A program made the position numbers and the translations under genes. From assembly GCF_037392515.1 (NCBI RefSeq), contig NC_090291.1:37285001-37349000 (forward strand): a stretch of DNA of 64,000 nt, given 5' to 3'. The stretch comes from Haliotis asinina. Its lineage: Eukaryota; Mollusca; Gastropoda; Lepetellida; Haliotidae. The stretch's first letter is position 1. Every line of letters begins with the position of its first letter. Positions 1 through 30,994 of the stretch are shown here, piece after piece. The notes beneath the pieces were generated by a model. The model worked only from the letters and a program-made list of their open reading frames with translations, searched no databases and was not told where the DNA came from.

Positions 1-3000
1 AGAGACGGTCCCCACTCGGGCAGCGGGGAGGAGAGCCTCTTTAAGAGCTGTAATTTCAGGGGTGTATGTCGTCAAACTACGGTTATAACAGACACGTTTG
101 TAACGAACTGATGGATACGACGAAATTGTTTCATCCTGGCCTCTTGATGTATACTTTTAGTCGAAATAGGTCATGCCAGCGACGAACTATTTGTATAAGA
201 CCATCGAGTGATGGTCTAGTAACAGCATAAGAATCAAACTGCGCAATTAGTCGTACGGCGCGAATAACGGAATCGGGTGGTCAGGCTCACTGACTTGGTC
301 ATCGTATGCCAAATTGCGCAGATCGGTACCTATGTCAAATATCAGTGGATTTTCTGGTCTAGATTCGATTATTTACAGACCGATGCTTTATCGCTTGAAT
401 ATTGCTGGGAGCGGCGGTAACAAACCAAACAACAACCGTTCAGACACGTGGTATAATGATTTTGTCCACGGTGGCAAGGTGATCGACAGAATGTTTGACA
501 GATACACGACAAAAAACAAACGCCTCTAAATAACTGTTAATACAAGGGAGAGACCGTTGGATGAGTGTGTCCTAGTATAATTACCTCCAAGCCGCCATTA
601 CGGAGGAAGTGGAACAAGAACCAACCGGGGATAGCGCTCATGGGGAAGAGAGCCACCAGCCAGTAGAGGCCCTGCGCCCAGTCTGGGTAGATGTAGCTTC
701 CAGACGCCATAGGGGTGTACTGAATAGACTTGAACACTATCACTGTCTGGAACAGAAGGTGTACTGGATTGACCTTCACACTATCACTGTGTGCAACGGA
801 GGGTGTATTCAACAGATTTGAAAACTGTCGGCAACATGTGAACTGCTTATAATTTACTTTGAAGGACATAATAGACATCATTGTTCAAGAACATTTAAAA
901 ACAATGTTCAAAAAAGATAAAATGATACAAAAAAACCCTCAAAACCCCAAAACAAACAAACAAACAACCCACAAATGAACAGTGGCCGGACAGTCTGTTC
1001 AAAAATCCAAACACGACAATGACCCAAGCTTCCACATCGGACGTACACGATATAAGCCATGGAGGAACCGTACTCAAATAACGCAGACATTCACAAAACC
1101 CATGAAGAGGCGCATAATGTAACTCACACACAACCGTCATGGCGGGAACATGAGTCTAAATCAGACACCTATAAGCGGCATGACGGCGTCATAATCAAAC
1201 GCAGACGCACGCTAACGACATGTCGGTGACATAGGCCTACACAGACACTCAGGAGACACACGGCCGCGTCACATGCTAAAGCAGCCACAAACAGCATGGT
1301 GGGGTCACAGGCTAATGCAAACACAAATAACGAACATGGTGGGGTCATAGGCTAACGCAGACACTCACAAACAACATGGCAGGGGTCATGAAGCACCAGC
1401 AGAACTTCCAGTAGACAGACGGACGTTTGCCCAGCATCATGGAGATGTCCTCGGAGAACCGACTGTAACCTGCAGCAAGAATATAGTGATAACTCAAATA
1501 GCAGATCACTTCAAGTGGTGGTAAAACTACATGAAGTTACTTTTTTTTACCGTGTTCAATTCTACGCTTATATTTTACAGACACTTGTAAATTTGCAATC
1601 CATCGGGGCAGTACGTCATTCCAATAGCATCCACAGATAGTGTTTGTTACATTTGGTTGGTTGGTTGGTTGGTTGGTTGTTTAACGCCGCACTCAGTAAT
1701 ATTCCAGCAGCAGTCTGTAAATACTCGGGTCTGGACCAGACAATCCAGTGATCAACAGCGTGTGCCTCGATCCACGTAATCGGGATGCGACGTCAACCAA
1801 GTTGCTGACGACCACAGTGTGACGCCACCGCTACCCTCGTCGTTATAAAAGTAAACTGTAAATTTGGTCCGGTGTTGTTCTGAGGTAATAATTAAGTGCT
1901 TGATTTATATTTGACGTAACATTGATTGAGTGAGTTTTACGCTGTACTCCAGCTATATAGCGACCGTCTACAGTGATCAACAGCATTAGCATCGATCTAC
2001 CCAAATGGATATGATAACATGTGTCAAGCAGGTCAGCGAGCTTCCTACGACAGGCATGAGTTGCTGAGAACCAATGGAAGACAGAATCTCCCAGACTTAC
2101 CGTATATGTAGTTGAGGGCGAGACACTCGAGGAGACCCACAAACAACAGAGGGAAGCCGCTGACAGCATTGTCTATCAGGTCCAGCAGATATATACCTCC
2201 CTTGTAAATTCAACATTCACATGAAGGATATCGGAAAATATAACAATACTTCACTGGTCCAACACAACAGTCATAGATATACGATCAATACTAATATTTT
2301 CATTTAAACTTTTAAGATCTTTTAAATCTTTTCAAAATTCCCTGACCATAAGGACCACTACAGACTTGTCACTGAGATGTCCTTTATTTACTGGTCAGGG
2401 ACCAGAGGACCAGCGAAATGTTCGCACACTGTCAATAACGAACAAGGCATCAGGAAACTGCTCTTACAAGGTGAGGGGCATTCTTATTATGATAAGTGCA
2501 CACTCCTCCAGGGAACGCCATTCTTTGTGTGGATGCAGCTACTCTCCTCAGATACAGGAACTTGGCTCTGTGTACATACTCCTCAGTAGGACCCTTCAGT
2601 TTAACCTTACAATGTCACATCTCTCCGTGAGTATATATGTCGGACTAAGGTAATAGAATCTCCTCTCTTGATTCGGACTTTGATAGCGCCCTGATATTAG
2701 AAACAGATATACATTTCGTGAGAGCATCCCTTTCTAAATCGTCCCCCCTGCTAAATACAGTAGTTCTTCTAGTAGAAAGAGGTTAGTGGACCATATTTAT
2801 CAGGCATCTTTGAAGTACTCACGTTTGTGGTCATGGGTAAAGCCATGAGGTAGAAGCCGACACACAGGGAGATCCGGAAGTAGACGGAGTTCCGGAAGTT
2901 CTTCCGGAGGATCCAGTCGTACTCGTCAGAGATGGATGAGATGACCGTCTCTATGATGGAGAACTGAAAAAAGGAAACGTTGAAGATGACGCCAAGAACT

Positions 3001-10013: not shown

Positions 10014-10357
10014 TGCCGCAAGTATCACAGTTGACAAGCAAACGTATTGGGAATTGTCAATGGACATTTCACTGGCCAGCGACATTTCGACGAAATTTAC
10101 TTAATGTCGTTGTTCCACATGTTTCAGTCATATCCACAGGGTATGTACCTGCAGGAATGCGAGACCACTTCTTGCCCTTGCCGTCGTTAGTTGTTATTTG
10201 GGACGAGAAGGTACACGGACATTGGTGTACCTGTCCGCTAAATCCCCGGGCGCTTTACCAACAGAACATGTCAGGGATGTTCTCAGATAGATAGCCACCA
10301 GGGAGGTGTCATCGTACCCTCCATCGTGGTGCAGCTGGGGTTAGCTCTTCACTCTGA

Positions 10358-10470
10358 CTGGTTGGTTGGTTGTTTAACGCCGCGCTCAGCAATATCCCAG
10401 CTATATGCCGGCGGTCTGTAAATCATCGAATCTGGACCAGACAATCCAGTGATCAACAGCATGGTAGAAA
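10358..10470 (-). mobile_element. SINE-A fragment
   Basis: GGTTGGTTGGTTGTTTAACG, GCCGGCGGTCTGTAAATCAT and CCAGACAATCCAGTGATC; stops abruptly near 10470. Confidence 0.75.
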
Positions 10471-11599
10471 TGGTAGCAATACGCACGTTACTCAACAGTA
10501 AACCATCAAGACATTGTGAAGGCATCGGACACGTTCGGTTTAAATGGCGGACAAGCTTGAATATAATGTTTCTCAAACATTTCTATCACCTACTTAGTGC
10601 GACTATTCTTTGTTTGTGATTCCATTTTTGGTTTTAGACATGATTAAACACTGGATTGATCTATAGACTATGTACCTGGTTTAGCACCTGTATGTATTAG
10701 AAACTGTATTGCACACGTACCTCTCATCACAGAGGCTCATGGAGGAATGGTTTCCATCAGACTTTGCCAACTAAATGAGCCAACAGTTCATCCACTACGT
10801 GCAACGTAGTTCCAACACACAACATTAAACCCCAAGTCACCCCACCTTACTTCTTGCTATCAACCATTATTTTGGCGGGTCCACAGTCGGGACTGTTGTG
10901 ATATAGCTGGAACATTGCGACATAATGCATCATTCACTCAATCGTAACGTACCTCCATTGTCGGTGACAGCGCTCTCACCTGGTCCGAATCCCTGCGGCT
11001 GTGCCTCCACCTGATGGTCTTATAGGAGTAACTGAACGAGCACACATTACCATGATGTGTGACTCTGCATATCTAGCATAGCTAGTTTCAGTGTTGATGA
11101 TGAACACGTGATTTACGGACCTACTACTGTGCTTGTTTTTATCACTTGTTTGTATGTAAATTCAAATGGAATTTAGTGCGCATGTCTTCTGTCGCTGACT
11201 TTAGTGCTTGAGTCTGCACAGGTATACCAACAGATCACACCTGCACTAGTTTCAGCATGTCTGAAGTGGTCCGAATGTAACAGTTTCGCTAATTTTTAAT
11301 AGTGCCAGGACAAACTGGTGTCAGTATTTCAGGGCTGCACTGGTATCGGCAGGTTTAAGGCAGCACGTATGTCAGCATGTCATTACTGTAAGTAGCCAGG
11401 GTGTACTTTGCAAACGCAGCCTGCACAGCCATAGCCTCATATACTTTTCAAATGTGTGAGCGTATTAAAAGTACTGTGCCCATTGGCAGTGGTCGCAGTA
11501 GCTATCTGTTGGATGTTAACACGGCATCATAATATGCAGGTGGTATATTCGCAGCAGCGGGACCGGTGCAGGTAATAGTAGTTGCATGGAATAACGCTC

Positions 11600-11680
11600 A
11601 TGGCTAGTCCAGTCCAGACTCGATTATTTCCAGACTGTTGCCATATACCTCGTTGCGGTGTTAAGCAACACACAAAACCA
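11600..11680 (+). mobile_element. SINE-A 3' fragment
   Basis: CAGTCCAGACTCGATTATTT then GTTGCGGTGTTAAGCAACAC; 3' part only. Confidence 0.6.
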
Positions 11681-11865
11681 AGAGAAATCGCCAAATTTCG
11701 TCACCTTAATCAATACATCCAGCACTGACAACATTATTCATTCACCAGGCGTGACAAGGCATATGTATGTGGTGGCTGGAGATTGGCGCCAGGTCAACTC
11801 GAGATTTATACATCAGGCATAAATAACAATGTTATAGAAAAGGGAACAGAATAAGGGAGAGATTC

Positions 11866-12020
11866 CAAGTCACATCAGCAGTATTTCAGCATTATCGTGA
11901 CTACATCAAGTTATGTATTAATAACAACTGTAGGTATATTACAAAACCATGTCAGCGAAGGACAGTAAACTAGACTGTCACATAAATAAATTGTAGTACT
12001 TTAACTAGTGAATTTAAATT
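11866..12020 (-). mobile_element. relic of a related LINE 3' end
   Basis: The stretch AGTCACATCAGCAGTATT through GAAGGACAGTAAAC resembles the 3'UTR of the full LINE at 18735-18860 (GTCACATCGGCAATATC, GAGGACAGTAAAAC) in the same order and spacing. It is 5'-truncated and diverged. Judged by eye only. Confidence 0.5.
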
Positions 12021-12719
12021 TAAATTTAAAAACATTTTAACTGTACGTGTCAAGACAATATGGACAGAAAAGAGAGAAAGAAACATTGGGGAAACTTAAT
12101 GTGTTGAATTAAATGTTGCATGTCCTGTCACAATCACAATACGTCCACGAGGGGACGCTCTGATCAGCACGTGATGTCATAATCGTGTTCTGTTATAAAT
12201 GCTCTACAGTTTCTTGGCAGAGGCTGGAGAAATCTTCGGAATCTGTCATGTGGAATTCTCGATTCCACCTGTAATTGGCCAGGTGGGCAAGTGTCTGTAG
12301 GTGAACGTGAGCGTGTGTTGTGTTCCCACAGATGCTCTATTGGGTTCAGATTGAAACGCCTTCAGAAGAAACTGACACTTAAGTACAGGCTGTCACTGCT
12401 GATTTTTATACATGTAACGTTATCAGGTTTAATGACATCCCTGTGTGGGTTAGTAATCCGCAAAATATGCCGTTAAAAGAATTATTTTTTATGGAGTAGC
12501 GCTATGTCCGCTGTCTAAGTACTGACAAACAATCGATGGAATTAAAGACTTCAACAAACCCTGCCTTCGTGACAGTTTCTCAATGAACCGACGAAATGTC
12601 AAACTTCGATCACGACAAAGGAGGATCTCAATACCCAATGTTAGGCAAATCACAAATCGTGAGCCAAACCCATGAGTTTGCAAGTGATGTTTCATTATAC
12701 TAACTGCACAATGCAAAAG

Positions 12720-12927
12720 TGAGTGAGTGAGTTTAGGTTTACGCCGCATTCAGCAATATTCCAGCTATATGGCGGCGGTCAGTATATAATCGAGTCTGGA
12801 CCAGACAATCCAGTGATCAACAACATGAGCATCGATCTACGCAACTGGGAACCGATGACATGTGTCAACCAAGTCAGCGAACCTGACCACCCGATCCCGT
12901 TAGTCGCCTTTTACGACAAGCTAAGTC
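12720..12927 (-). mobile_element. SINE-A copy with target-site duplication
   Basis: The best kept SINE-A, 208 bp, tail (ACTC)3 in sense. Flanked by the 14-bp direct repeat GCACAATGCAAAAG at 12706-12719 and 12928-12941, which proves retrotransposition and sets the ends. The 5' end in sense starts near TTAGCTTGTCGTAAAAGGCG; it may be 5'-truncated. Confidence 0.9.
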
Positions 12928-14211
12928 GCACAATGCAAAAGACTCAGATCATCTATACATGAAGGTATATGTTAACAGCAAATGAAACCAGACTACCACA
13001 TCTGGGCTCGAACATAGGACTGAAGCCCTTCCTTATCACCCCGTTGATAAATCTGAGAACGTGTACCAGTGTATAACACGCGAAACAATAGCAAAGCCGT
13101 GTATGTACAAGATGGCTATGTTTTACATTTCCAGTCAACAACCCAAACCACTTTCATCCTAATCAGAATTTATGGTAGGCCATGTAGTACGAGAAGTGTT
13201 CATGCCCGCTTGAAGCTCCGCAAATTAATGTACACCGAAATGTTTTCGTTGTGTGTGTAACGCAATACTAATTACCTATTGTCAGTATGGTAAACATCAC
13301 ATTTACATAATGGAAGTCATACTGTGAAGGCAAACTGCGGTAGAAGCCCTCGCAGTGTTTAAGCCACACAATATACTTAAATGCATGAATATCATTTAAA
13401 AGCAAGAGATTAGTTTAACGATGCATTTAGTATTATTCCAGCATCGAGGAGAAAAGAGACCCAGTACACATGTGGGGAATCCAACCCGGGTCATAAGCGT
13501 GACAAGCGAACGTTTTCATCATATCATCTAGTTCCGTGTTAATTACCACGTTCAATGTAATACTTTAACCCACTGAACGACCTTGCACAAGACCAGTCAG
13601 AGCTTACCTGATCACGAAAGTGATTGCTGGAATATGTTCAAGCAACATCAAAGAGGATAACATGGATTATTCCGAATCACTGTCGTCTCTCGCTTCAAAA
13701 GGTTAAACATTTGAACAGGGGATACTTTGCATACGGCCATCTGTTGGACATTGCAGAATTGAAATCGAGAACATTGTAAAAATACATTTCAAGTTAAAAA
13801 ATGGGATTCGTCATAATACCAGGGGATCTGTCACAGGCGTAGCTACCATTATTTAAAAAAAAGCACAGGTTTACTCATGATTGTTGCTAAAAAGGTTGAA
13901 CAAGCGCTCGGTACTATCTTCATATAAAGCTTTGCAACCTATCGGGCTTGCACGAAAGCATTGGTTTGCTACGCGCCTGCCTGTACACTTGATTGTCACA
14001 CATAGGTAAATGAAAGCGACCATCCTGTCATTGTGGGATGCGGAATATATCACTGGACATGATAGTTAAACTGGATCTAGTTTTAAATCAGTTTTTGAGT
14101 TTGGCAAACATTGGGTTGTTCCTTTCTCCATTGGCAAAAATACTGAATGATAACGGTAATTCATATTTACCAAGCGATTTTGAAAAAATAAAGACTCGTA
14201 ATATAAAAATG

Positions 14212-14217
14212 TTTATT
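14212..14217 (-). terminator. candidate polyadenylation signal of SLC6 gene B
   Basis: TTTATT on the plus strand reads AATAAA on the minus strand, about 690 bp downstream of the gene B stop codon. The region between is AT-rich with no ORF, as expected of a 3'UTR. The motif is common by chance. Confidence 0.3.
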
Positions 14218-14902
14218 GGATCATTTATGTGTATGTAAATGTGATATAATAATAACTAGATGTACAAATAAGTGACATTTAATCAATTAAACAATACGCG
14301 AGCGCATACACGATTATAATATTCAATGTACCATAAAGAAAAGAGTATAGTAAGAAGATTTAAGAATACACAATGTGGAGTTCATTTGTAGTAAAGGCGG
14401 TATCATGATGTACCGTATATATTCCATGATGTACCAAGGTCAAGTATATTGTGGTGGGTCAAGGTCAGGTTAAGATGGGGCCTTTAGGCATAAGTCTTCT
14501 CAGTTTTGCCTGGCGTCATCTAAAAAGAAGACTAAGGAAATTTACTCTTCTACGCTTGTTACCGGGTTATTCTACTTTGATAAATGATTTGTATCCATGA
14601 GAGCGTGGCGTCCCGCTTCCTCTGTTACACTGCGGTGAGTGAAGTGTGTAATAAGAGTTCTAATGTGTGCTTCAGTGACCTTGCGCATCAAGGTTGTGTC
14701 TGGTGACCAACATGTCTGTATTCACCGGAAATACCAAAACAATGTGCATCTTTTCAACCCAAACATATACAATTCAGCCAATATTGTCGATGTAGCGTGA
14801 GGTAGGCCAATGCAAAATTTACAGGAGTGTTCAGGTATCTTCCATGTGGATGCTTACTGACTGTGTCCTACCGTCTTCACATATAACCAGTGAGGTAACC
14901 CG

Positions 14903-16027
14903 TTACCACTGCCCTCTCCGCCCTGGCATCACATCCGTCATGGCAGCATCCTCCAGTTCGTACACAGCGATACCTCCATCTTGTATCTTCTTCAAGAAGC
15001 CTACATGTTTACCAGTGGCCTCTGCTTCCCCGAAGTCTCGGATCACTGGAACTTCGGGGGTTCCTCGGCTGTTGGTCTCTGATACTTCTTTAACAATGGC
15101 AACGTTTGACGCCTTGGAACTGATTACAGTTGTGTCTTTGACTTTGCCTGCGACAGTTTCTTTGACGACGGTGAAGGAAGCTTCTTTGACATCGGTTACT
15201 GGTGCTCCTTTGACGCAGGTTACTGGTGCTCCTTTGACGCAGGTTACTGGTGCTCCTTTGACGCAGGTTACTGGTGCTCCTTTGACACCGGCTGCTGATA
15301 CTCCTTTGACACTGGTTACACCTGCTCCTTTGACATTGCTTACGGTCTCTCCTTTCACACCTGTTACAGTGGTCCCTTTGACGCCGGTTACCGTCTCACC
15401 TTTTACACCGGTTACAGTTACCCCTTTAACACCGGTTACGGCCTCCCCTTTGATACTGGTTACAGTCCCTCCTTTGACACCAGTTACGATGTCTCCTTTA
15501 ACACCGGTTACGGTCGCTCCTTTGGCACCGGTCACGGGTGTCCCTTTGACACTCACTACCGACGCTCCTTTCACAGGGGTCGAGACAGCGCCTTTAACAG
15601 ATGCTAAGGGTGACCCTTTCACACTGCCTTGCGGTGCCCCTTTAACGCTTTTAACGCTGTCAGCACGTTTAATTTCCACGGAGGCCCCTTTGACGTAGTT
15701 CCCGACTTCTCTGTCGTCTGTGGCATGGACCTTGCCGGCACTCTTGACACTTCCGACCTTGTTGCCTTTCACGCTTCCTCTTGGCGAGGCCTTACGCCCA
15801 GTAGGTGGGTCCTGCTTCTCTCCGCCATTCCTGTGTTTCGAATCGAATCCCCCCTTGCTACTCACGCCCTTGACATCGTTCTCAGAAGCCTGGTCGTCCA
15901 CGTTGCTGATAACGATTGAGGGGATGCCCGACGTCCCAAGAGCGTTACTGTCAGCGTATATACCAGTCCTGTGTTCGGGCAGCCGGGGACCCCAGTCAGG
16001 AGCCGGCCGGGACAATTTTTTAATAAT
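14903..16027 (-). CDS. terminal exon of SLC6 gene B: 374-residue cytoplasmic tail
   Basis: The acceptor TTACAG precedes ATTATTAAAAAATTG at 16027, joining in phase 0 to the TM12 exon. Residues 1-26 of the exon are the conserved SLC6 tail start ([18 protein letters not shown]). Residues about 50-126 are Lys/Gly rich with irregular VKG motifs. Residues 127-318 are 24 octads in perfect register, consensus G-V-K-G-x-x-V-T. Residues 319-374 are non-repetitive and partly acidic ([12 protein letters not shown]), ending GRRGQW before TAA at 14903. Typical SLC6 tails are a few tens of residues, so this is very long. The tail is predicted intracellular; no hydrophobic membrane segment is visible in it. 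Function unknown. Confidence 0.85.
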   Translation of the reverse strand: MIKKLSRPAPDWGPRLPEHRTGIYADSNALGTSGIPSIVISNVDDQASENDVKGVSSKGGFDSKHRNGGEKQDPPTGRKASPRGSVKGNKVGSVKSAGKVHATDDREVGNYVKGASVEIKRADSVKSVKGAPQGSVKGSPLASVKGAVSTPVKGASVVSVKGTPVTGAKGATVTGVKGDIVTGVKGGTVTSIKGEAVTGVKGVTVTGVKGETVTGVKGTTVTGVKGETVSNVKGAGVTSVKGVSAAGVKGAPVTCVKGAPVTCVKGAPVTCVKGAPVTDVKEASFTVVKETVAGKVKDTTVISSKASNVAIVKEVSETNSRGTPEVPVIRDFGEAEATGKHVGFLKKIQDGGIAVYELEDAAMTDVMPGRRGQW

Positions 16028-19000
16028 CTGTAACAACATCCGCATGCTATTATGGTTAAATCGCTCTTATTGCATATCAGTTTAATATCATATCGTGTAA
16101 ACAAGAGCGTGTAAACGTTGGTTGATACGTCAACGTTTCAGGAACGTCATGTTGGGTTCCTTATTGTTAGTAACGTCATGTTTTGCTGCTAAACGTCAGT
16201 CAAGTCATGTTGTGATGCCTAAACTTAGTAACTTCATGATGTGTTGCGAACGTCATTAACGGCATGTTGTGTTGCCTAATGTTAGTAACGTCATGGTGTG
16301 TTGCCTAAGGTTAGTGACGTCATGGTGTGTTGTCTAACGTTGGTAAGCCGTGACGTTCGTAAGATCGAGTTGTTTTGCGTAAAGTCAGTAACGTCATGTT
16401 GTCTTGCATAACGTTAGCTACGTCATGTCGCGCTGCTACGTCATAATCTGTTGCTCACCGTGCATCCGCCATATCGAAGGAAGTAGACAACGAACCAGCC
16501 CGGGATGAAGATAACACAAACTGTCATGACCAACCAGCCCAGTACTTGTGCCCATGCTGGGTAGATGTACTCTACATACCCCAGGGGCTGGATTCGGCAG
16601 CTCTTGAACACGATCACACCCTGGAGACACAGGACATCCTTAAGTAACTGGGTAAAAAATGTTTAATAAACACTTTATCTCATCCACGATGAAGAAATAT
16701 AGCAGATTTACCTTACGGTACTGGGGAAGCACAAGGTCGGATGTGAGGCAGACCTATGATGTAGCGTGAGAACGTACAAAGTTAACAAAAGGTGAGGTCG
16801 GTGTACATGTACGACAGCAACTGAATTGCACTTAGTTTAATTAGACCCAAGTCTAAAAACGTTCAAATATTCCTCTAATCTAATTTATGAATGCAAAAGC
16901 CTAAAGTAAAGCTGTGAAAACATCAACGCGTCGGCTTCAGTACTGTGAGTGAGTGAGTGAGTGAGTGAGCGAGTGAAATGGTTTGACAACCATTTCGAGA
17001 TTCAATCCCACAGCCAGATCTTTCTGGTCTGGCCAAGGGACACAACTCTGCTCAGGAGTTGCCACGCATCACCTTCCTGTGCGACTCGTGTTGGGAAATG
17101 GCAATTGGAGTGGAGTCTTTTGTATACATACAACGAGAATTACTGGGGCGATGAAGCACCAGCACATCTTCCAGTACACCGACATCTTTTTCCCCATCAT
17201 CATCTGAAGGTCCTCCGCAAACCTTCTGTACCCTGGATATGAAAAGCAGATGTTTTACGGAAGAACTTATCAAACATACCTGGCGGCTGATTCTTCGCCG
17301 AGTCCCGGTAGACAAGTGGTTGAAAATATGATCAACGTGGAGCGACGTCTTTATCACATCCTGAGAAATACCGGCACATCTAATTTGATCTCTCATTGGT
17401 CAGAATTGTGGTCAGGTTCCCTCTCGTCGGGCAAAGGCAGTGTTTGGATTGGTTGGTTAAACAAAGATTCTTACTGCTGATACATGTTCCTGAGTACCCG
17501 CCGTGTCTGGAAGCCCCGTTAAATTGCCAATGTTTGACTCACCGTAGATGTACATGACAGCGACGATCTCGCAGATGGCAATAATCAGCAGAGGGAAACC
17601 GCCTACAGAGGAGTCGACGATGTCAAGGAGGTAGATGCCAGCCTGCAAAACAACGTCGTTACCTATGACTACATGCAGCGGTCTTCTTTGATCAACGTTG
17701 GACGACCAAAGGGAAGTAACTCAAGTACTTCTCAACCCAAATAGGTAACTGCTATATTTCCAGTACTAGTAATATCACAGCGCGTCAGCTCAACTTTGGA
17801 GGAAATCCTGAAGAGATGCTGGTCTTAGACATGTCCCATTTTAGTAAAACACACGAGCAAGCAGCTGACAAACTTAGAAAAATAATCGGGGGATCTTGGA
17901 TTCATAATCACAGATTTCCGGCGCGCCCATGGGACGCAACTCTGCAAGACAAAATCGTAGATGACACATCCATGCCCTTCCAAACCCTTGCTATACGACA
18001 TCATTACGACATGCAATTCGTCCAGAAGACTTCAGCACCAACCAATATTTTTTATATTGCCCTATGATCAATACGATTGCTTTATATGTAACGTTATGGA
18101 GTACTGCCATCCTGTTGTGAATTATTTGTGGTCAGTTAAACGTACCCCTGTTGTCATTGGCAACGATAACAGGAAGAGACCAATGGAGACGATAGTTCGG
18201 AAGATGAGAGTTCTTTTCCATGTCTTCCTCAACAACGAAGGGTATTCGTCACAGAGCGAGGAAACTGCTGTCTCTGTCATAGTGAACTGAAACAAGTCAG
18301 ATACATGTATATAAGATTTGCTGACTGGTTTGGTGTTCAACATTCTCTTCCCACAGTGGTTACTTGTCATATCTTCCTACGTAACCTCTGTTCTAATACG
18401 ACCCTTTCATGGTGCGAGTATTCAAGACTCGTGATTGGTGGCAATCAGATTTAGTAGTGCAGTCAGCGACCTTGTTTCAAAAGTGATCGTTCGCAAGATC
18501 TCGATAATTTCCGGATGCATCGTGAAAACTAGAACCTCTTCCAGAGCGCGATACTCAAATGTTTCTTCTAGACAGAACTCAGTCATCTCATATTTGTTTC
18601 TCCACTTTCCTTGGATTTGTCAATTTGAAGCTAAGTCGATGTAACACGTGTTCTGATTGGACAGAAAAAAGGGAGATAAATCTGCTGCCATTTTATGCCG
18701 CTAGTGAGTGAGTGAGTTAATGTTTAACGTCACATCGGCAATATCTCAGCCATATCGTGACGAGAACATTTAAATTAAATATATGCATATGGAAAAATCT
18801 GTCAATCGAGGACAGTAAAACAACTAGCATATGACAGTTTTAAGTAAAACTAGTATGGAAAGTTAAAACTAATAGCACTATTTAGACAATACATAATAAA
18901 AACAGACTATAGATCGCCAACAACTGAAGGTAGATCACCACACTAGGGACCATGGGGACTTACAGTACCTTTGCTACCTGCATGGACCCTAGTTGGATTT

Positions 19001-22000
19001 ACATCATCCCCTCAGCTGCTGGCGATTGTACGAAAGGTTAGCCAAAATTAAAACAACATGAATACTACGATTAAAAACCTGGCAGACTTAAATTTACTGT
19101 GAATGTTTGTGGACTTACGTACCCTCTCAGGAGGACAATAATTTTACAATACTTCAACCCCCTTTGAGGGTACAGCCACCAACAATTCAAGTTACTAATT
19201 CAAACTACCAATCATTAAAATACATCTATTTACAGAAACATACTATTCAAAATTCACCCAAAAAATCAATTTCTTTTAAAAAACCTATAATAAAATGAGA
19301 ATTAACGTTGGTAAAAAGATCCTTCATTGTTTTAACTGTAAAATATTTATCCCTTGTGATGGAGAATTCAACACAGTCAAGCAGAATATGCTTGACCGTG
19401 ACTCTCTCATCACAAGGGATGCAAAATCGAGGATCCTCACCTTTCAACAGGTATGCATGAGTATATCTAGTGTGGCCAACACGACATCGTCGTAGTATGA
19501 CCTCTTCAAATCTGGATTGACAACCCAAGTGGGTATAACCAATGTAAGGTTTTATCTCATGTAATTTATTTATACCCACTTGGGTGTCCCACTTCTTTTG
19601 CATCAGATCACGGATGTAAGATCTAATGGTGGCTTTGTAATCACTGTAGGGAATAAGAAGCGGTGTCACAGATTTGTTGAGTGCTGCCTTGGCAGCAAGA
19701 TCGGCCATTGTGTTCCCTGAAATGCCTACATGGCTGGGTAACCAACAGAAGACGATGTCGTATTGGCCAGTAGCAAGATTATTATACAATTCAATAATGT
19801 CAATTAAAAGTGGATGTTTACATGATAAATTTTTAATCGCCTGGAGACAAGAAAGAGAGTCTGAATAGATTATATATTGTTTACGTTTAGGGTGTCTTTG
19901 AATATATTTGAGAGCTGTTAATATGGCGTTAGCTTCAGCTGTAAAAATAGAACTACTAACTGGTAATCTAGAAGATATTGTTCTGGATCCAATGACAGTG
20001 GCACAAGCCACAGCGCCACCATCCTTGGACCCATCTGTAAATAAGGATTTATAATTGCTATATTTATGTTTTAATTGATTATATTTTTGCTTATATTGTA
20101 ATTCATTAGTCTCTGATTTTTTAAATGTGGTCAATGTTAGGTCTACTTGAGGCCTGACCAACTGCCAGGGAGTAGAAGAAAGAAGACGGGAGGGAGCTAT
20201 GTTTTCCAGCTGAATCCCAGCAGCAGAAAGAAAAGGTGTAATTCTATGTCCCAGAGGCGGGACAAGAGAAGACTTTTTGTTGTATAAATCCTCATAAAGG
20301 GGATTGAAAACACAGTTATATGCAGGGTTAGAATGATTAGAGTATAATTTAGTAATGTATTGTAAAGCTAACTTTATACGGCGCTGCTCAAGAGAAGGTT
20401 CATCAGCTTCAACATAGAGACTGTCAATAGGTGAAGTTCTAAAAGATCCAAGACAAAGTCTCAGACCTTGATGATGGACAGGATCAAGAAGTTTAAGATT
20501 GCTTTTGCAGGCTCCCCCGTAAACGATTGAGCCATAATCAAGTTTAGAACGAACTAGTGATCGATAGAGATGGAGAAGGGTAGCTTGATCCCCTCCCCAT
20601 TTTGAATTTGAAACAACTTTCAACAAGTCAAGTGCTTTCAGGCATTTAGTTTTAAGTGATTTAATATGTGGTAAAAAAGTTAAATGTGAATCAAAGATTA
20701 GACCCAAGAACTTGGCTTCCTTCACAACTTTAATGGGCGTCCCATCTAGAGACAGTTCAGGATCTTTATGGGGTTTATATCTACGACAAAAATGTATGCA
20801 GTTAGTTTTCGATTTAGAAAATTTGAAGCCGTTTTCAAGACACCATTTATTTATTTTGTTTAAACAAAGCTGCAGTTGCCGTTCAATGGTATGCATATTT
20901 TTCCCACGACAAGAAATATTAAAATCATCCACAAATAACGATCCATCAATTGAATCGTTTAAAACTTTTGATAAACTATTTATCTTGATGCTAAAAAGTG
21001 TGACAGACAGAATACTGCCTTGTGGAACACCCTGATCCTGATTGTAATGATCAGACAGGGTAGAACCCACTCGAACTTGAAACTGTCTGTTATTTAAAAA
21101 GTTGGCAATAAATTGAGGCAAACGACCTCGCAAGCCGAAGTCATGTAAATCTCTTAAAATACCATATTTCCAGGTTGTGTCATATGCCTTCTCAAGATCA
21201 AAAAAGATAGACACAGCATGTTGATTATTAATCAGTGCATTTTTAACAAATGATTCCAGTCGCACTAAGTGATCGACAGTACTTCTGTTTTTACGGAAAC
21301 CACACTGTATATCAGTTATAAGGTTATTTGTTTCCAAGTACCAAACAAGTCGATTATTTATCATGCGTTCCATGGTCTTGCAAACACAGCTAGTTAACGA
21401 AATCGGACGATAATTGGATGGATCGGTATGATCACGTCCAGGTTTAGGTATGGGTACTACTATGGCGTCACGCCATGATGAAGGAAAGTTACCCGATGTC
21501 CAAATATCATCAAAAATATTTAGGAGAGTTTCTAGGCAGGATTCTGGTAAGTGCTTCAGGAGTTGATAATGTATGTTATCAGCTCCTGTAGCAGTGTCGT
21601 GAGCTTGATCAAGAGCAGTATGGAGCTCATGAATAGAAAAAGTTTCATTATAATCTTCCCCATTATCTGAGTTGAAATTAATAGTTTTCTTTTCTTGTTG
21701 TTTTTGATACTGCTGGAATTTAGGTAAATAATTAGAAGAGGAAGAGTGTTTAGCAAGGGTTTCACCCAGTTTATTTGCGATATCTGATTTATCGGTAAGT
21801 ACTTGATCTCCATGTTTAAGATGATTGACAGTAGATTTAGTACCTTTACCTTTACTTTTCTGGACCATATTCCATACCTTGGACATGGGTGTCCGAGAAT
21901 TTATTTTAGATACATAATTTTGCCAAGATTGGCGTTTGTTCTGTTTAAAAGTACGCCGTGCTTTAGCATTTAAAATTTTAAATTTATTCAAATTATGCAC

Positions 22001-25000: not shown

Positions 25001-27780
25001 GACCAGTTCTTTATGGGTAAGATATACACTTCACAGAGTGACCCCACAACTGTTTCCGGTATTAAACATTATCTATATACATATGTCAAGTAGAGAAGCA
25101 AAAATTCAAAAATAAACCCTGACATATACTGGACAAAAACAGTTAGGGATATATGTAAATTTTGAAATTATGAAATAATGATCTATATATTCATTGACAC
25201 ACTGATGAGATATTAGTCATAAAAATATCAATAACCCTAACACATTTTGTCCAGTTTATACGGGTGAGAGGGTGTGGCTATCACCGTCCTTATTAAGGCG
25301 GCTTGAAACTGAATCGCGTTGACGCAACCTCCCGGAGCGGCACGCCATCTCTTTTACCCCAACTTATCCCAGTCACCTTTGCATGGACTTGTTGTATAAC
25401 CTACCAGAGAGCTGAATCCTATGATAAGCATCATGAAGAAGAACAAGATGGCCCAAAGGGTGGGGACCGGCATCCTTGAAAGGGCCTCGGGGTACGCTAT
25501 GAAGGCCAGGCCAGGTCCTGGAATAGGTTGTCATTAGGGCTTTGAAAACTGTAAAATCATAGAATCTGTCCTTGTTAACTTACACAAATTACTTCCCCTT
25601 GAGAGAAGAACGCCATTATACATGTTGAACTAGGGAGGTACTCCTAATGAACTCAGATGCCGACTGGTGTATTTTGGGTCTAAAATCTTGCAAAGAACAA
25701 AAGCTGTCAAGAATTAGTGAAAAACTATGTATATTTTGTGTCGTTAAAACTTTACAATCTTCCGTGTAAACCATCGCACCATCGTATGTTTTTACAGAAT
25801 ATTTTTACCTCAGGATACCCGAGTATCCTGCCCTGAGTGTAATGAAAGTTCTGTTCTGTTTCTGTTCTGGCAATCTTTTGATGACAATAATCCGTAACAT
25901 TCAAAAAGACCTTACGAACACACGTGCCTCGTGACTACCCACTTGAGTGGCTTACTCTGGTGACTTACCCCCCGTGAAATGGCTTACCTCCTACAGCTAC
26001 CTCTTCGACAGTGACCCCTTTGTCATGCGCCATAAAGCCAAGCACAGCGAACACTACCAAACCGCACAGGAAACTGGTGAAGCAGTCCACACATGGCACC
26101 AGAATGGCGTCCCTAGATACAAATATGACACTAATAGTGAACACTTTGCACTAGTAGGGCGTCCCTTGACACAAATACGACAACGGTAACCGGAAATGGG
26201 CTCACACATTGTACCCATGTTAGGAATCGAACCCGGATCTTCGGTGTGAAGAGCCAACGCTTTAACCAGTAGACTACCCCAAAAACTTGCATTCCAAGAA
26301 AAGAATGTAATAAATATGGCATTCTTGGAATCAGACATGAACATGAGGAGCCAGTATAGCATCCCATTACTTATGTTATTACTTATTACTTTTCGCAAAC
26401 AACGTGTCCTTACCTTAGACAATTGTTCTTGAAGTTATTGAAGCTAGCCATGAGGTTGAGGCCGCCCATGCCGACTCCGAGAGAGAAGAACACCTGTGTT
26501 GCTGCATCGCTCCACACCTGGGAATGTGTATCAGCAAGTATAGAGACAGTCTGGAAGATTTAGCTAACGGGGCGATTTCGGTTGCCACAGCCAGTTTCGA
26601 CATCTATGAGCGTTAAAATAGGTCGGTATCTGGTGAATGACTTGTACCTCGCTCATAAGATTATTACGGGTAATACAAGGCTGTATGCGAGGGAAGTTCT
26701 CATTTATAACTGTCACAGAACAAGAATAAACTCTGGGTTTAGAAACCGCCGTAATCCGATCCTCGTACGTGTAAGAGAAGTAACCTTGCGCCAGGTTACT
26801 GACAACGCCAGAATGGACTCTAAACCAGTGAGAAAAAACAAACAAAACAACAAAACCTTGCTTGTCCTGCCAGAGTACTGCTAATGTGATCTCACACACT
26901 ATAACATTAACTTACGACAAACCTAGTGCTACGATCTTTTGTGGAAGTGGGACCTGTAATTTACGCATAAATATGAAAAAGGAAATTGGTTCTACATTTA
27001 CTAAATGGATGCAATGCGAATATATGGATGCCAAAATATTGTCCGACAAAGAAGCGAATGTTGACTACGTCGTTGGGGCACAGTACTGACCGAGGCGTCT
27101 GCCAGGCGGTGCCACTTGGGGGTGAGGAAATACAGGATTCCGTCCGTGGATCCCGGGAGGAGACAGGCGTTGATGAGGAGGGACAGCAACAACACGTAGG
27201 GGAAGGTGGCGTTGAAGTACGCAACCTGCATAAACAACCGTTAAAGTTGAACTGTGTCTCAATCCGGGCGTCGGTTTGTTTATAGTACTCCAGCGTTAAT
27301 ACAGCCGCATGTGTGTAATCAGTGTAGACTAGGCAGTCCAGTGATTGACATCACGAACATCGATCTACGCAAATGGGATACGATAACATGCGTCAGCCAT
27401 GTCTGTGAGCCTGACTGTGTACTTGGGATGTAAGCGAGACATTTCAAAGGCGAGGTCCGCATATTTATCATGCTTTTCCTGAATCTTGCCAATCACATTG
27501 CTGTCAAAAGGGACAGAAAATTCTATGATATAAATAATTTCATTGGCTTTATCAAAAAGAACAAGATCAGGTTTGTTGGCTGGAATTCGTCTCAGGCTGT
27601 ATATTGGCCTATTCCAGAGAAGTTTATAGCTGGCATTTTCCAGGACGCCCTGGACATGCTCAGGGTCGTGCCATGGATGGACCTCGGAGTCAAAGCCACA
27701 GGCATGGCGGAGACGATAATAAAAGCAGCGAGCCACGCCATCATGTCTTTTAAGATATGCTGTTTGTGCCAAGGAAGGTG

Positions 27781-27825
<45 letters not shown>

Positions 27826-30800
27826 GTAAAATTAAGTGCAACGTTACATGCTACGTAAACATGAGGGCATCATACAAAGAAAATTTTGCTTTGCTAGTAC
27901 TACCGTACCAAAATACGTTACAAAATGGTAGTTATTGTTACCCTGCCTGGTGTTGGCCATGAAGGAGTTAAAAACATGGACCAGTTGGTCCGGAGTCTGT
28001 GTGCTATGACTGAACAGAGTAGCACCGGCACCAGACAGGACGAACATAAGCCGAGACGCGCCTTCTCTCGCAAGTTTATGTACACTTGGGCCCAAACTAG
28101 ACACCATCTGATGTGCGGCCTTATAGCATGAATACTGCTGAGTGCAACGTTAAAGAACATAAGGTTTGTTGGACTCAGTATAGCTGTGTAACGAATAATA
28201 CTGACACAAAGTTTACTTAGGCTGTTTCTCTAGCCTCCTTTTTTTCACATCACATGATGTTTTGTTTGTATTTTCTTTAACCCCGCACTTGGCAATAATC
28301 TAGCTATATGGCCGCACATCAGAAGGTGTCCAATGCACTGTCTACACCACTATGATCTGTAAACCACAAAAAGAAGAGTGTGATTTCTACTTGGTTACCT
28401 TGCCGAGAGACTTGATTCCCCTGAGTAGCACCAGGAACACGACAATGCAGGCAAACAGGCAGCATAGACACACTTTCCAGTTGACAGTCCCCATGTCTTC
28501 CAGGCCTGACGTCATCTCCAGGACGAAATGTCTGCAACAGTGCACGTGTACCACGGGCAGAGAGCGAGGCAGAGAATGCGACCATTAGAGACAGAGAAAA
28601 ATGTGAGCATAATTCATCTTGAAGATTACATTCATCTTGGTGGTGACTGTGTTAACCATAGAAAGTAAACTCACATATATCATAATTATCATTTGCTTAT
28701 TCCAAAAGTAAATATCTAAGGCCTATTTTACAGGTTTGTGTTCATGTTTTATGTGGCCAATCCAGGTCCTTTGCAATTGGGGCAATCGAAATGGCAAAAT
28801 GTGTAGCTTTATCTGTGGATTGTTGTTAAAGAGATACAGACAAACGGACACAACTGTCAGCTAACAATGACATTACATTTTACACGCTGGGACCTGCTAT
28901 CTCTCACCCTAGCCAGCGTTGTTATGCTATTTTATATTCAACAAATAATGTTGCCGCACTCGACAATATGCCAGCAATATGGCGGGTGTCTGTAAATATT
29001 CGAATCTGGACCAGGCAATCCAGTGATCAACATCATGTGCATCGGTCTCCGCATATGGGGATACAATGTGTCAATCAAGTCAGTAAGGCTGACGCGATCC
29101 GGTTAGTCGCCTGCTACCACAAGCTTCAGTTGCTGAAGACCAATTGTAACCCGGATGTTCACCAACATACAGGTGGTTAAGGACCATTTCTGGCCTGGAA
29201 TTCCTTCTGGTTCGGGTTGTACGTACTTGAAGTAGTCTTCAGTTGGGGAGATGGTGTGGTTGTTGTGGCTCATGCCGCTGAGGCTCACGTTTCCCCCGTT
29301 GATGGTGTGATTCTGTGTGGCGATGTTAGCAGAGGCAACTGCGAATATATACCGAATGAGGTATCAAGGTCGTAAAACTTCAAAAGCGGGAAGGTTTCTC
29401 TTTCTTACAGTTCACGACACACAAACATTTATTACGTTTACAAGCAACAATGGCCATGACCACGCCCATCTCCCAGTCGCGTGAAAGAGTATTTCGGGAC
29501 TTGCACCTAAAATTTGGATTACCTCTTGTGCAGCGACCTCAGTTCAGTTTGATGACAGGTATTTCTATAGCGATTACCTCATTTAACCATCCTGTCAAGT
29601 AACGCCAACAGCGATACTGTTGGACATCTTGATGGAGGTGTACACATAGAATTAACGGCACCGTAACCAGGACTTGTCCAGTGATGACCGCGGTTAGGCC
29701 AGTGTGTCTGTTCCTGCAGTGAGACCAGGGTGTAGTGTAGGATTACCTGCTATATCGACACGACAGTTGGGACTACTCCTTTAGTGCCTGCAGTGAGACC
29801 AGGGTGTACTGTAGGATTACCTGCTATATTGACCCGACAGTTGGGACTACTCCAGTAGTGCCCGCAGTGAGACCGGGGTGTACTGTAGGATTACCTGCTA
29901 TATCGATCCGACAGTTGGGACTACTCCAGTAGTGCCTGCAGTGAGACCGGGGTGTACTGTTGGATTACCTGCAATATCGACCCGACAGTTGGGACTACTC
30001 CAGTAGTGCCCGCAGTGAGACCGGGGTGTACTGTAGGATTACCTGCTATATCGGCCCGACAGTTGGGACTACTCCAGTAGTGCCCGAAGTGAGACCGGGG
30101 TGTACTGTAGGATTACCTGATATATCGACCCGACAGTTGGGACTACTCCAGTAGTGACCGCAGTGAGACCAGGGTAGGGGGGACTGCATGGAGGAGAAGA
30201 AGTAGAAGGCGATGTAACCGACGATGACGGTGAAGTAAAGGACAATGAGGGCGCAGACAATCACCATGCTGATTCCAATACCTACAAGACAAATTACAAT
30301 CATACCAGAATTTTTAAGGTCAACGTTCCACAAAACACTTGAAGATAGCAAGAAACAACTTCTATCTACCTTTAAGTAGAGGATTGGCCTTCCAGATGGT
30401 GATAGGGCCTTGTCCTGCGAACTGGCCGAAAGACAGTTCCATGAAGAACAGAGGCATCCCAATGAACATTTGCATCATCCAGTATGGGATGAGGAACGCA
30501 CCTGCAGTGTGGAGAACGCCCATTAATCACATGACAGAACACAAACAGGTTTAACGTCACGGTTAATCAACATTTGTAAAGGTCTGAGTCAGTGATAATA
30601 TTTCTGTGTTTCTGTGAGTAAATGAAACTGTGTGTGTGTCTGTACGTAAGCATGGATGTCAGATGTATGTATGTATGTATGTCTGGATTGCTGGATGTGT
30701 GTCTGTCTGTCAGATTTATGTATGGATGTGAATCGATACGTTAGTGCGTTTATGCGTGCGTGTGTGCGTACATTCATGTTTACTTGAGGTGGCACAGGGA

Positions 30801-30994
30801 GAGAAATGTCTGTATACAATTTTGACGCAGCGGACTGACATGACAGTGAGGTTTATTCGTGTCTATGCCTCACCTCCTCCATTCTTGAATGCCAAGTATG
30901 GAAACCTCCAGACATTACCCAGACCTACTGCATACGCCACACAAGTAAGGATGAACTCCACCTTCGTTCCCCAGTTGCCACGCAACAGCTTCAT
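14903..30994 (-). CDS. SLC6 transporter gene B with long octapeptide-repeat C-terminal tail
   Basis: Paralog of gene A. Exons in gene order: 30874-31001 (ATG at 30992-30994), 30370-30501, 30117-30281, 29227-29338, 28399-28531, 27091-27225, 26414-26517, 25988-26112, 25405-25517, 18146-18286, 17543-17642, 17132-17232, 16459-16620, 14903-16027. All junctions are GT-AG and in phase, giving 922 residues from MKLLRGNW. The N-terminus is very short for the family, so an upstream exon may be missed. Core marks: [11 protein letters not shown] in TM1, PWSHC...SPNC in EL2, [11 protein letters not shown] in TM6 with chloride-site Gln and Ser, [13 protein letters not shown] in TM7. Most exons have the same length as in gene A; the EL2 pair differs (165+112 bp against 204+43). 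The 374-residue last exon starts [14 protein letters not shown], the normal SLC6 tail motif, then becomes repetitive. The 7.1-kb intron 18287-25404 holds a LINE. Confidence 0.9.
15074..15649 (-). repeat. 24 x 24-bp coding minisatellite (octapeptide repeats) in SLC6 gene B tail
   Basis: 576 bp, exactly 24 units of 24 bp with no indel. Encoded units run from SVKGAPQG to IVKEVSET. Lys at position 3 is present in all 24; Gly follows it in the first 19, then Glu, Glu, Asp, Ala, Glu. Three units, CVKGAPVT, are near-identical at DNA level (around 15195-15290), which shows recent expansion, while the outer units have diverged by point changes yet kept register and Lys, which suggests coding constraint. 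The opposite strand is also open here, but that is a by-product of the repeat. Confidence 0.9.
16130..16458 (-). repeat. ~30-bp degenerate tandem array filling the intron next to the TM12 donor, gene B
   Basis: Roughly ten units containing AACGTCATG, GTGTTGCCTAA and GTTAGT. The array reaches the donor of exon 16459-16620, whose intron start (sense GTGAGCAACAGATTATGACGT) fits the unit. It takes up most of the 431-bp intron 16028-16458. It contains about ten ACGTCA half-sites and one full TGACGTCA near 16315. Confidence 0.75.
16943..16978 (+). repeat. (GTGA)n microsatellite
   Basis: About eight GTGA/GTGAGC units; same motif as the SINE and LINE tails but without a recognisable element body. 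Confidence 0.8.
18342..18391. repeat. partial copy of the palindromic element (gene B intron)
   Basis: A complete left arm up to CTTCCTAC, then GTAACCTCTG from the far part of the right arm: an internal deletion of the hairpin tip side. Confidence 0.85.
18693..18704. repeat. LINE target-site duplication, left copy
   Basis: TTATGCCGCTAG, directly beside the (GTGA)n end of the LINE; identical to 24799-24810. Confidence 0.85.
19247..22960 (-). CDS. LINE ORF2: AP-endonuclease, reverse transcriptase, RNase H
   Basis: About 1.2 thousand codons. Endonuclease domain at the N-terminus: [34 protein letters not shown]. Reverse transcriptase: [35 protein letters not shown] and the catalytic FVDD. RNase [37 protein letters not shown]. 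Near the end a cysteine-histidine motif, [17 protein letters not shown]. The frame opens at 22960 just after a stop, but no ATG precedes the conserved QWNCRG start; expression probably depends on ORF1 (frameshift or reinitiation). All catalytic motifs are present, so the protein could be active. Confidence 0.92.
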   Translation of the reverse strand: MPKKSPQKIVYSNNIVQWNCRGLRTNLHELQLLVQDFTPSALCLQETYLKQTDAFDLRHFNAYHSFSPPGDRATGGSSVLVRQNVIQSPVSLNTNMQAVAVRITLHVAFTLCSLYISPSSTFAKTDLQALYDQLPKPCIIMGDLNGHNPLWGSVNINAKGKLLEDFCSDNDLCIYNDGSNTYLHPGTGTYSALDLSLTNSELLNEFEWSVHDDLCGSDHFPTILKAVTPSDVPPSSRRNFKEANWTLYETLCAEKLKPERFTDVPDAIKCFSDELNSIADECIPKSSAVPHIRKPWFNDECKQARKARKKAEHYFRRHPMVHNLNKFKILNAKARRTFKQNKRQSWQNYVSKINSRTPMSKVWNMVQKSKGKGTKSTVNHLKHGDQVLTDKSDIANKLGETLAKHSSSSNYLPKFQQYQKQQEKKTINFNSDNGEDYNETFSIHELHTALDQAHDTATGADNIHYQLLKHLPESCLETLLNIFDDIWTSGNFPSSWRDAIVVPIPKPGRDHTDPSNYRPISLTSCVCKTMERMINNRLVWYLETNNLITDIQCGFRKNRSTVDHLVRLESFVKNALINNQHAVSIFFDLEKAYDTTWKYGILRDLHDFGLRGRLPQFIANFLNNRQFQVRVGSTLSDHYNQDQGVPQGSILSVTLFSIKINSLSKVLNDSIDGSLFVDDFNISCRGKNMHTIERQLQLCLNKINKWCLENGFKFSKSKTNCIHFCRRYKPHKDPELSLDGTPIKVVKEAKFLGLIFDSHLTFLPHIKSLKTKCLKALDLLKVVSNSKWGGDQATLLHLYRSLVRSKLDYGSIVYGGACKSNLKLLDPVHHQGLRLCLGSFRTSPIDSLYVEADEPSLEQRRIKLALQYITKLYSNHSNPAYNCVFNPLYEDLYNKKSSLVPPLGHRITPFLSAAGIQLENIAPSRLLSSTPWQLVRPQVDLTLTTFKKSETNELQYKQKYNQLKHKYSNYKSLFTDGSKDGGAVACATVIGSRTISSRLPVSSSIFTAEANAILTALKYIQRHPKRKQYIIYSDSLSCLQAIKNLSCKHPLLIDIIELYNNLATGQYDIVFCWLPSHVGISGNTMADLAAKAALNKSVTPLLIPYSDYKATIRSYIRDLMQKKWDTQVGINKLHEIKPYIGYTHLGCQSRFEEVILRRCRVGHTRYTHAYLLKGEDPRFCIPCDERVTVKHILLDCVEFSITRDKYFTVKTMKDLFTNVNSHFIIGFLKEIDFLGEF
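22933..24231 (-). CDS. LINE ORF1: nucleic-acid binding protein with CCHC zinc knuckles
   Basis: About 432 codons from the first ATG (24231). The middle carries [14 protein letters not shown] and [14 protein letters not shown], both C-X2-C-X4-H-X4-C, then a third knuckle starting CTNCSGDH. The C-terminal third is Ser/Lys rich. ORF1 proteins of this kind coat the RNA and aid reverse transcription. The ORF ends SPKNPPKR with TAG at 22933-22935, overlapping the ORF2 frame by 27 bp. Confidence 0.88.
   Translation of the reverse strand: MMNHMTPIMAYEIPPKKTKRPLEIDPVDTSHRPSLSIEYWPRFLVIETPDKTPLKLNPFAVSKGIQGIAGDVKNIRRLRSGALLIECGKKQQTTNLMNIESFVGIPVTVSAHKTLNTSKGIVRDRDRLFADMSELDIACEMKDQGVLYVKRFSTRKNNETIQTNTYLFFFSLPNAPKSVKAGYCNIQVETYIPNPLRCFKCQKYGHGVSTCTLSVVCAHCGEKTHTTEDCDSDFKKCTNCSGDHSSSSKQCPIWKEQMAINKIKFTQNISFSEAKKLVKRSDLLESYATVAKSSSESNSKITKSSTGCQTTLTWVISDSPQVLYPAISSQTEESLPTTSKSSDHKSSSQSRSESHSTADRQQIVKTKPKPKSDASKQQSGRVPKGSQNKIQLFNKYGSLEDMDVSENVHSRAHSLSPSKRVRGRSPKNPPKR
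24799..24810. repeat. LINE target-site duplication, right copy
   Basis: TTATGCCGCTAG beside the 5' end of the LINE; identical to 18693-18704. The pair fixes the element's boundaries. Confidence 0.85.
24871..25005 (-). mobile_element. SINE-A fragment
   Basis: GACCAGGCAATCCAGTGATC through CACGTTAGTCGCTTATTACG. Lacks the 3' tail. Lies just beyond the LINE's right flank. Confidence 0.75.
25125..25260. mobile_element. Tc1/mariner-like MITE (gene B intron)
   Basis: Inverted ends: TATACTGGACAAAAACAGTT then AGGG at the left, CCCTAACACATTTTGTCCAG then TTTATA at the right, pairing over about 25 bp with a TA at each border. About 135 bp, AT-rich, non-coding. Confidence 0.75.
26195..26285 (-). mobile_element. 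tRNA-derived SINE head fragment, gene B intron
   Basis: On the minus strand GGGGTAGTCTACTGGTTAAA and GGGTTCGATTCCTAACATGG, i.e. recognisable A and B boxes; no tail seen. Confidence 0.7.
27312..27415 (-). mobile_element. SINE-A fragment joined to LINE endonuclease fragment
   Basis: GCAGTCCAGTGATTGACATC, CGATCTACGCAAATGGGATA and GTCAGCCATGTCTGTGAGCC; continues directly into the R2-like coding fragment at about 27420. Confidence 0.65.
27425..27772 (-). mobile_element. fragment of a second LINE type: C-terminal restriction-like endonuclease (R2/NeSL-like)
   Basis: Open reading of about 115 codons containing [20 protein letters not shown] and [10 protein letters not shown], followed by [12 protein letters not shown]. 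This is the pattern of the PD-(D/E)xK domain at the C-terminus of R2-like LINEs, where a P-D and a D/E lie on neighbouring strands. The reverse transcriptase is absent. Its left end runs into a SINE-A sequence and its right end abuts a (TTA)n tract. It is only a fragment in the gene B intron 27226-28398. Confidence 0.6.
27783..27826 (+). repeat. (TTA)n microsatellite
   Basis: About 14 units beside the R2-like LINE fragment. Confidence 0.95.
28940..29160 (-). mobile_element. SINE-A copy
   Basis: GTTGCCGCACTCGACAATAT, GGACCAGGCAATCCAGTGAT and GATCCGGTTAGTCGCCTGCT, ending TTGCTGAAGACCAATTGTAA. Confidence 0.8.
29650..30170 (-). repeat. 74-bp tandem array copying the EL2 exon end and its splice donor, gene B
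   Basis: Seven landmarks GAGACC lie at 29721, 29795, 29869, 29943, 30017, 30091 and 30165, exactly 74 bp apart, with a partial unit to the left. In sense each unit contains the exon end encoding C-G-x-Y-W-S-S-P-N-C and then CAG/GTAATCC. Potential donors lie at 30117 (in-phase, used in the model), 30043, 29969, 29895, 29821 and 29747. Confidence 0.95.

Follow-up and report, generated by a model that had tools for sequence, protein, structure and literature searches.

A probable 24-bp coding minisatellite lengthens the predicted C-terminal tail of a GlyT/PROT-like SLC6 transporter in Haliotis asinina

The C-terminal tails of SLC6 transporters are cytoplasmic, are as a rule short and control the trafficking of medically important transporters. 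In other proteins, coding minisatellites with a unit that is a multiple of three bases are found to duplicate within an exon; we know of none in an SLC6 tail. For GlyT2 (SLC6A5), one report describes constitutive endocytosis as needing a cluster of four C-terminal lysines (Lys; K751, K773, K787 and K791) that are ubiquitinated (PMC3590132), and a second describes the ligases LNX1/2 as ubiquitinating this cluster by recognizing the PDZ ligand of the transporter (PMC6802383), i.e., the terminal TQC (PMC3590132, PMC6802383). In the open-access literature, we found neither a published SLC6 transporter with a repeat tail comparable to the one described here nor any mention of its exact octad strings. 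The gene analyzed here (gene B) lies in a stretch of 64,000 nucleotides (the window, C12:37285001-37349000) of the H. asinina genome (1.143 Gb, 159 contigs). Like GlyT2 and the GlyT1/PROT group, gene B has a full SNF domain, a PDWGP...Y anchor and C-terminal Lys; unlike GlyT2, it has a last exon of 374 residues with 42 Lys and an end reading RGQW. A C-terminal lysine cluster is thus present (42 Lys in 374 residues, of uncertain homology to the four Lys of GlyT2), and the C-terminal PDZ ligand of the GlyT2 (SLC6A5) subfamily is absent.

Gene B was modeled from sequence as an intact 14-exon SLC6 gene (30994-14903, minus strand; 922 residues after splicing), with exons placed by comparison of the window with itself, by alignment to PDB entries and by inspection of splice sites (Table 1). 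All 13 internal junctions are GT/AG with consistent phases, and the predicted frame over the spliced exons is open up to its sole, terminal stop. The first 678 residues match PF00209 (SNF) over profile positions 1-522 of 524 with 618.3 bits, i.e., above the curated cut-off of 27 for the SLC6 (sodium:neurotransmitter symporter) family. Among named PDB entries the best match was GlyT2 (E = 4.4e-178; 597 bits), followed by GlyT1 (561 bits) and PROT (543 bits), with an entry named only "Transporter" at 589 bits; ranked by these scores and not by a tree, gene B is, as judged from its sequence, a GlyT/PROT-like SLC6 transporter with GlyT2 as its nearest named solved relative. The locus is present as a single copy in the one assembly searched, and the hexamers AATAAA and ATTAAA occur on the gene B strand at 14217 and 14283.

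Two repeat-related features were observed upstream in gene B. The intron between 18286 and 25405 contains a non-LTR retrotransposon (19250-24345, minus strand) with one long frame, which encodes RNase H in addition to endonuclease and reverse transcriptase; its other frame, 470 codons long, matches no Pfam family. At 29716-30175, a 74-bp tandem array (6.2 copies) is made up of repeats of the 3' end of a gene B exon, in extracellular loop 2, and the adjoining splice donor; 74 bp is not divisible by 3, and a frame continued past the first donor (30117) runs into a stop shortly ahead of the second one.

Table 1. Features of gene B and of its neighbor paralog A in the window (positions of the window; all on the minus strand)
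Feature	Position	Strand	Basis or remark
Paralog A, start of last exon	1..47	-	continues beyond window; 65-residue tail
Gene B, last exon, 374 codons + stop	14903..16027	-	acceptor ttacag/ATTATT
Non-repeat C-terminal end, residues 319-374	14906..15073	-	translation; ends RGQW
24 in-register octads, 24-bp coding minisatellite, residues 127-318	15074..15649	-	Lys at position 3 in 24/24; TRF
Three CVKGAPVT units, DNA-identical, adjacent	15194..15265	-	unit comparison
Lys-rich stretch, degenerate VKG-type units, residues 35-126	15650..15925	-	translation
Conserved SLC6 C-terminal anchor, 25 residues	15953..16027	-	aligned to PROT, GlyT1, GlyT2; common to paralogs
Gene B, penultimate exon, end of SNF domain	16459..16620	-	PF00209 31 bits; donor ACG/gtgagc, phase 0
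Gene B exon	17132..17232	-	window self-comparison, gene model
Gene B exon	17543..17642	-	PDB alignment, gene model
Gene B exon	18146..18286	-	window self-comparison, gene model
Gene B exon	25405..25517	-	window self-comparison, gene model
Gene B exon	25988..26112	-	PDB alignment, gene model
Gene B exon	26414..26517	-	window self-comparison, gene model
Gene B exon	27091..27225	-	window self-comparison, gene model
Gene B exon	28399..28531	-	window self-comparison, gene model
Gene B exon, extracellular loop 2, ...SPTEDYFK	29227..29338	-	splice sites, phase, similar SPSEDYF in paralog A
Gene B exon	30117..30281	-	window self-comparison, gene model
Gene B exon	30370..30501	-	window self-comparison, gene model
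Gene B, first recognized exon	30874..30994	-	begins MKLLRGNWG; further upstream N-terminal exon possible

The last exon begins with the conserved anchor (PDWGP...RTGIY), which has the counterparts SRPAMDWGPSLEENRTGMY in PROT and PDWGPFLAQHR in GlyT2 and runs on in frame into the tail; this continuity, together with the 14-exon model, bears out the original prediction of a genuine SLC6 gene with an in-frame tail in its last exon. The exon had also been described as adding 374 residues, and it does hold 374 residues and a stop, but the first 25 or so of these are the ordinary conserved SLC6 C-terminus. In the degenerate stretch that precedes the main array, residues 71, 79, 87 and 95 are Lys in steps of 8, in a register other than that of the main array, and K113 and R121 fall in the main register. 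Within the main array, Lys recurs 24 times in unbroken 8-residue steps (residues 129, 137 ... 313), exactly as first noticed. The description of the units as perfect octads holds for their length, register and Lys, but the full GVKGxxVT is matched by only 6 of the 24 units (VKG by 17). The array thus consists of a tandem unit that is a multiple of 3 within a coding exon, i.e., it has the makeup of a coding minisatellite, and TRF reported a 24-bp array of 15.5 copies at 15180-15552 (score 297). The DNA identity of the adjacent CVKGAPVT units is in line with the recent unit duplication proposed at the outset and suggests that the array was either recently changed or altered in assembly; it also hints at copy numbers that may differ between individuals. 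A motif scan of the whole 374-residue tail found neither NPx[FY] nor PPxY. Two further features were seen around the array, i.e., a 300-codon open frame antisense to it (14796-15695, plus strand), as would be expected wherever a 24-bp unit without stops is repeated, and a 29-bp minisatellite at 16143-16428, which occupies much of the intron preceding the tail exon.

As exon GC exceeds that of intron and 3' flank, the tail can be called coding independently of the repeat: the last exon has a GC content of 53%, close to the 52% of the other gene B exons, as compared to 41.5% for the last intron and 37% for 14001-14900. In 200-bp windows, GC ranged from 49 to 57% over 14903-15902, and it fell from 52% on the coding side of the stop to 42% immediately beyond it. 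The 374 codons contain neither a premature stop nor a frameshift; for the array, openness is expected by chance with a probability of (61/64)^8 = 0.68 per frame, and under the same simple model the chance that the 148 non-octad codons past the anchor are open is approx. 0.0008. A codon-usage score, on the other hand, gave the sense frame of the non-octad tail no advantage (-0.144 bits per codon vs. -0.106 for the best antisense frame), and for residues 319-374 the sense frame was beaten by another frame that has five stops. It is also conceivable, if improbable, that the tail is absent from the main protein, either since the exon is spliced out past 15865 or since another last exon is used. 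Four donor-like sites lie within the last exon (the best, GGGC/GTGAGT, i.e. GGGCGTGAGTAG, at 15865), and most of the tail could therefore be removed by splicing. PPxY and NPx[FY] are each found four times as isolated letters, in three frames, in 9701-15900, including a PPQYT followed by a stop at 14457, and a tiny alternative last exon with a paralog-type ending may exist. Against this alternative, 320 more codons are open beyond 15865, the rise in GC extends to the stop, and a tblastn search downstream gave no convincing counterpart of the tails of its neighbor paralogs.

These neighbors, paralogs A (minus strand) and C (plus strand), belong, like gene B, to the SLC6 family and adjoin it on the same contig. 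The last exon of paralog A (from window position 47) encodes 65 residues ending DKPPSYSDTVTTKM; paralog C, on the strand opposite to gene B and with its penultimate exon 3.1 kb past the window edge, ends DNPGFTKGDEPPSYQDTFTKM. Identity to the gene B anchor is 64% for A and 52% for C, and each shares 28 of 54 residues with the penultimate exon of gene B; A and C share 38 of 54 and are thus nearer to each other than to B. The intron before the last exon is in phase 0 in both gene B and paralog A. Unlike gene B, the two paralogs have short tails (65 residues in A and about 90 in C) without octads, and both tails end in DNP(A/G)F...PPSY.DT..TKM (DNPAF or DNPGF), no part of which occurs in the gene B tail.

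The comparison was extended to the whole genome by a search for SLC6 last exons with a 30-residue piece of the paralog A last exon (E up to 10). This search yielded 17 matches, 14 of them weaker than 0.001; each sits in an open frame that includes the WGP anchor. Counted from the W of WGP to the end, under the assumption of no further intron, the 16 last exons other than that of gene B encode 46 to 93 residues with 3 to 7 Lys, as compared to 363 residues and 42 Lys in gene B, i.e., a tail Lys count six or more times higher. None of these 16 exons contains octads, which agrees with the initial view that the layout is unusual (1 of 17 last exons found); this incomplete list is confined to last exons with a recognizable anchor, and the genome has at least 122 exon-level PF00209 matches. 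Of the 16 tails, four (L053, L055, L059 and L062) have PPxY, and six have NPx[FY] outside the anchor (L053, L055, L058, L065, L066 and L067; the tails of L065 and L066 are nearly identical). Three further SLC6-like last exons (L039, L043 and L052), outside both the 17 matches and the 16 comparison tails, are likewise short, with 44, 131 and 42 open codons, respectively, and no octads. The search also revealed a 250-kb tandem cluster at C2:58378197-58625816, in which 11 of the 17 last exons (L057-L060, L062-L064 and L066-L069) lie on one strand.

Overall, it is probable, as far as the genomic sequence allows the protein to be read, that gene B is an SLC6 transporter in which a 24-bp coding minisatellite has lengthened the last-exon tail to 374 residues with 42 Lys. 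An in-frame minisatellite would have expanded within the last exon of a single SLC6 paralog and displaced a short trafficking tail. Growth presumably occurred by unit duplication; with a unit divisible by three, the array can gain or lose copies and still keep its reading frame. The NPxF, PPxY and TKM-type end may have been lost by gene B rather than never present. The architecture, i.e., an SLC6 transporter with a predicted coding-minisatellite tail, is unusual, and its contrast with the paralogs is the new result. Gene B would indicate that a last-exon minisatellite is able to remodel a membrane protein, and it offers a natural comparison of Lys number and spacing versus docking motifs in setting turnover.

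When the gene B tail protein was compared to the genome, 93 matches were obtained (110 of 1431 candidates scored), all of which, except gene B itself, had E values of 1.8e-10 or weaker; tail residues 1-66 and 345-374 were reached by no match besides gene B among these. Thirty matched loci were fetched, one of which was gene B, and 15 others were read (14 plus L014); all 15 are repeat arrays, and no second gene with the gene B tail emerged among them. Arrays with a 24-bp unit are abundant in the genome, and 24 of 31 array loci scored (some of which overlap) are more homogeneous than the gene B array. For example, L007 and L014 (C12, approx. 33.92 Mb) represent a 24-bp array with octads such as EGNVKGDT and EDDVKADA. 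Like the gene B array, L007 has octads that stay open for hundreds of codons (917), with VK in nearly every unit of the part inspected; a difference from the gene B array is that both strands of L007 carry long open frames.

The original prediction had taken the kept register and Lys as arguments for selection, a point on which our data lead to a different assessment. Lys is encoded by AAA in 23 of the 24 octads, as compared to 6 AAA and 12 AAG codons earlier in gene B (P = 1.8e-5; Fisher's exact test), and the adjacent Gly codon is split between GGA (11) and GGG (6) (P = 0.014 vs. AAA:AAG of Lys). As the synonymous site is constant as well, the invariance of Lys is not readable as protein-level selection on Lys alone; the constancy of AAA, while third bases of the neighboring Val and Gly codons vary, perhaps reflects a DNA- or RNA-level constraint. 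Val at position 2 (V2) is retained in 21 and Gly at position 4 (G4) in 19 of the 24 units, with third bases of both spanning all four letters, an observation in favor of some constraint. On a minimum spanning tree, the synonymous share was 0.431 for units 5-19 (0.306 under neutrality; P = 0.0245) and 0.337 for all units (0.290 under neutrality; P = 0.085), with one antisense frame reaching 0.362 in the latter set. Permutation of codon-position diversity gave P values for a third-position excess of 0.0475 (units 5-19) and 0.094 (all units). With units 5-19 the sense frame had a pN/pS of 0.46, with all units one of 0.63, and either time it ranked below the five other frames; but of the 78 frames offered by 13 other 24-bp arrays in the same genome, 12 had values of 0.46 or less, a rough comparison in which 10 of the 13 arrays are more homogeneous than gene B units 5-19. 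The 13 arrays were picked by hand, without a fixed rule, from 31 scored loci (L002, L003 and L006-L034); the 18 left out were overlapping, very homogeneous or poorly periodic (L002, L015, L030 and L031). Evidence for purifying selection on the array is thus marginal (P = 0.02-0.09) and ordinary beside that of anonymous 24-bp arrays. With a marginal outcome in three tests, selection was rejected as proof of a tail function.

The same data bear on the reading that the tail is tolerated filler, i.e., a minisatellite drifting in a permissive last exon, with no role beyond its length and the missing old motifs. The modest synonymous excess (for all units below that of an antisense frame), the pN/pS values of the other arrays and the large number of 24-bp arrays in the genome (the window alone has 47 tandem-repeat rows in the TRF output, some overlapping) all speak for filler. 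The retention of V2 and G4 despite varying third bases, the rank of the sense frame as lowest in pN/pS and the 374 codons without stop or frameshift speak against it. We consider filler a real possibility, about as likely as a changed turnover of the transporter.

Among functional roles, we tentatively rate an altered surface turnover via ubiquitin first, by analogy with GlyT2, because the Lys of the GlyT2 tail accept ubiquitin and because motifs that might dock E3 ligases or PDZ proteins are missing from its tail. The gene B tail would, from SLC6 topology, lie on the cytoplasmic side, and its Lys array might act as an acceptor of ubiquitin (or SUMO) that sets the endocytic rate, with a dose tuned by copy number. 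Such a role is possible in view of the control of GlyT2 turnover by a C-terminal Lys cluster (PMC3590132, PMC6802383), of the place of GlyT2 as nearest named solved relative and of the excess of Lys over the 16 paralog tails; on the other hand, the gene B tail lacks possible E3 docks (PPxY, PDZ-type end), and psi-K-x-E, the SUMO motif, occurs in only 4 of 24 units. SUMO spacing as the logic of the array was rejected on this latter count. The PPSY or TKM of paralogs A and C may, judging from the motifs, dock ligases or PDZ proteins. Access of other ligases to the Lys ladder would speed up the turnover of gene B, and a loss of docking would slow it down. That the octads form a lysine ladder tunable by copy number, which replaces NPxF/PPxY/PDZ control so that minisatellite length sets the rate of membrane removal, is a far more speculative extension that we regard as improbable.

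A selected polyvalent docking tail, in which spaced Lys/Val units would bind acidic lipid, cytoskeleton or a scaffold, appears rather unlikely. It is consistent with the strict register of the 24 Lys, with a net charge of +15 over the 192 octad residues (25 K, 10 D/E; +20 for the whole exon) and with the position of the Val-rich octads on the folded side of the charge-hydropathy line, i.e., they are not simply disordered. A polyvalent basic tail as initially envisaged is nevertheless weakly basic at best, as this charge is modest and drops to 0 to +1 per 24 residues toward the C-terminal end of the array; moreover, the invariance of Lys extends to the synonymous site and octads are absent from all 16 paralog tails. 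No Pfam family was above cut-off for the octad array, and a beta-flower fold (Bflower_2, PF21785) was rejected, as its match is below threshold (21.9 bits; cut-off 38) and repeat-driven. As the octads are rich in Val and on the folded side of the line, a beta-prone, sticky tail is conceivable. Elsewhere in the window, two single-frame proteins with ankyrin repeats and a SOCS box, alike in layout, are encoded on the plus strand at 35777-36979 and 40020-41105.
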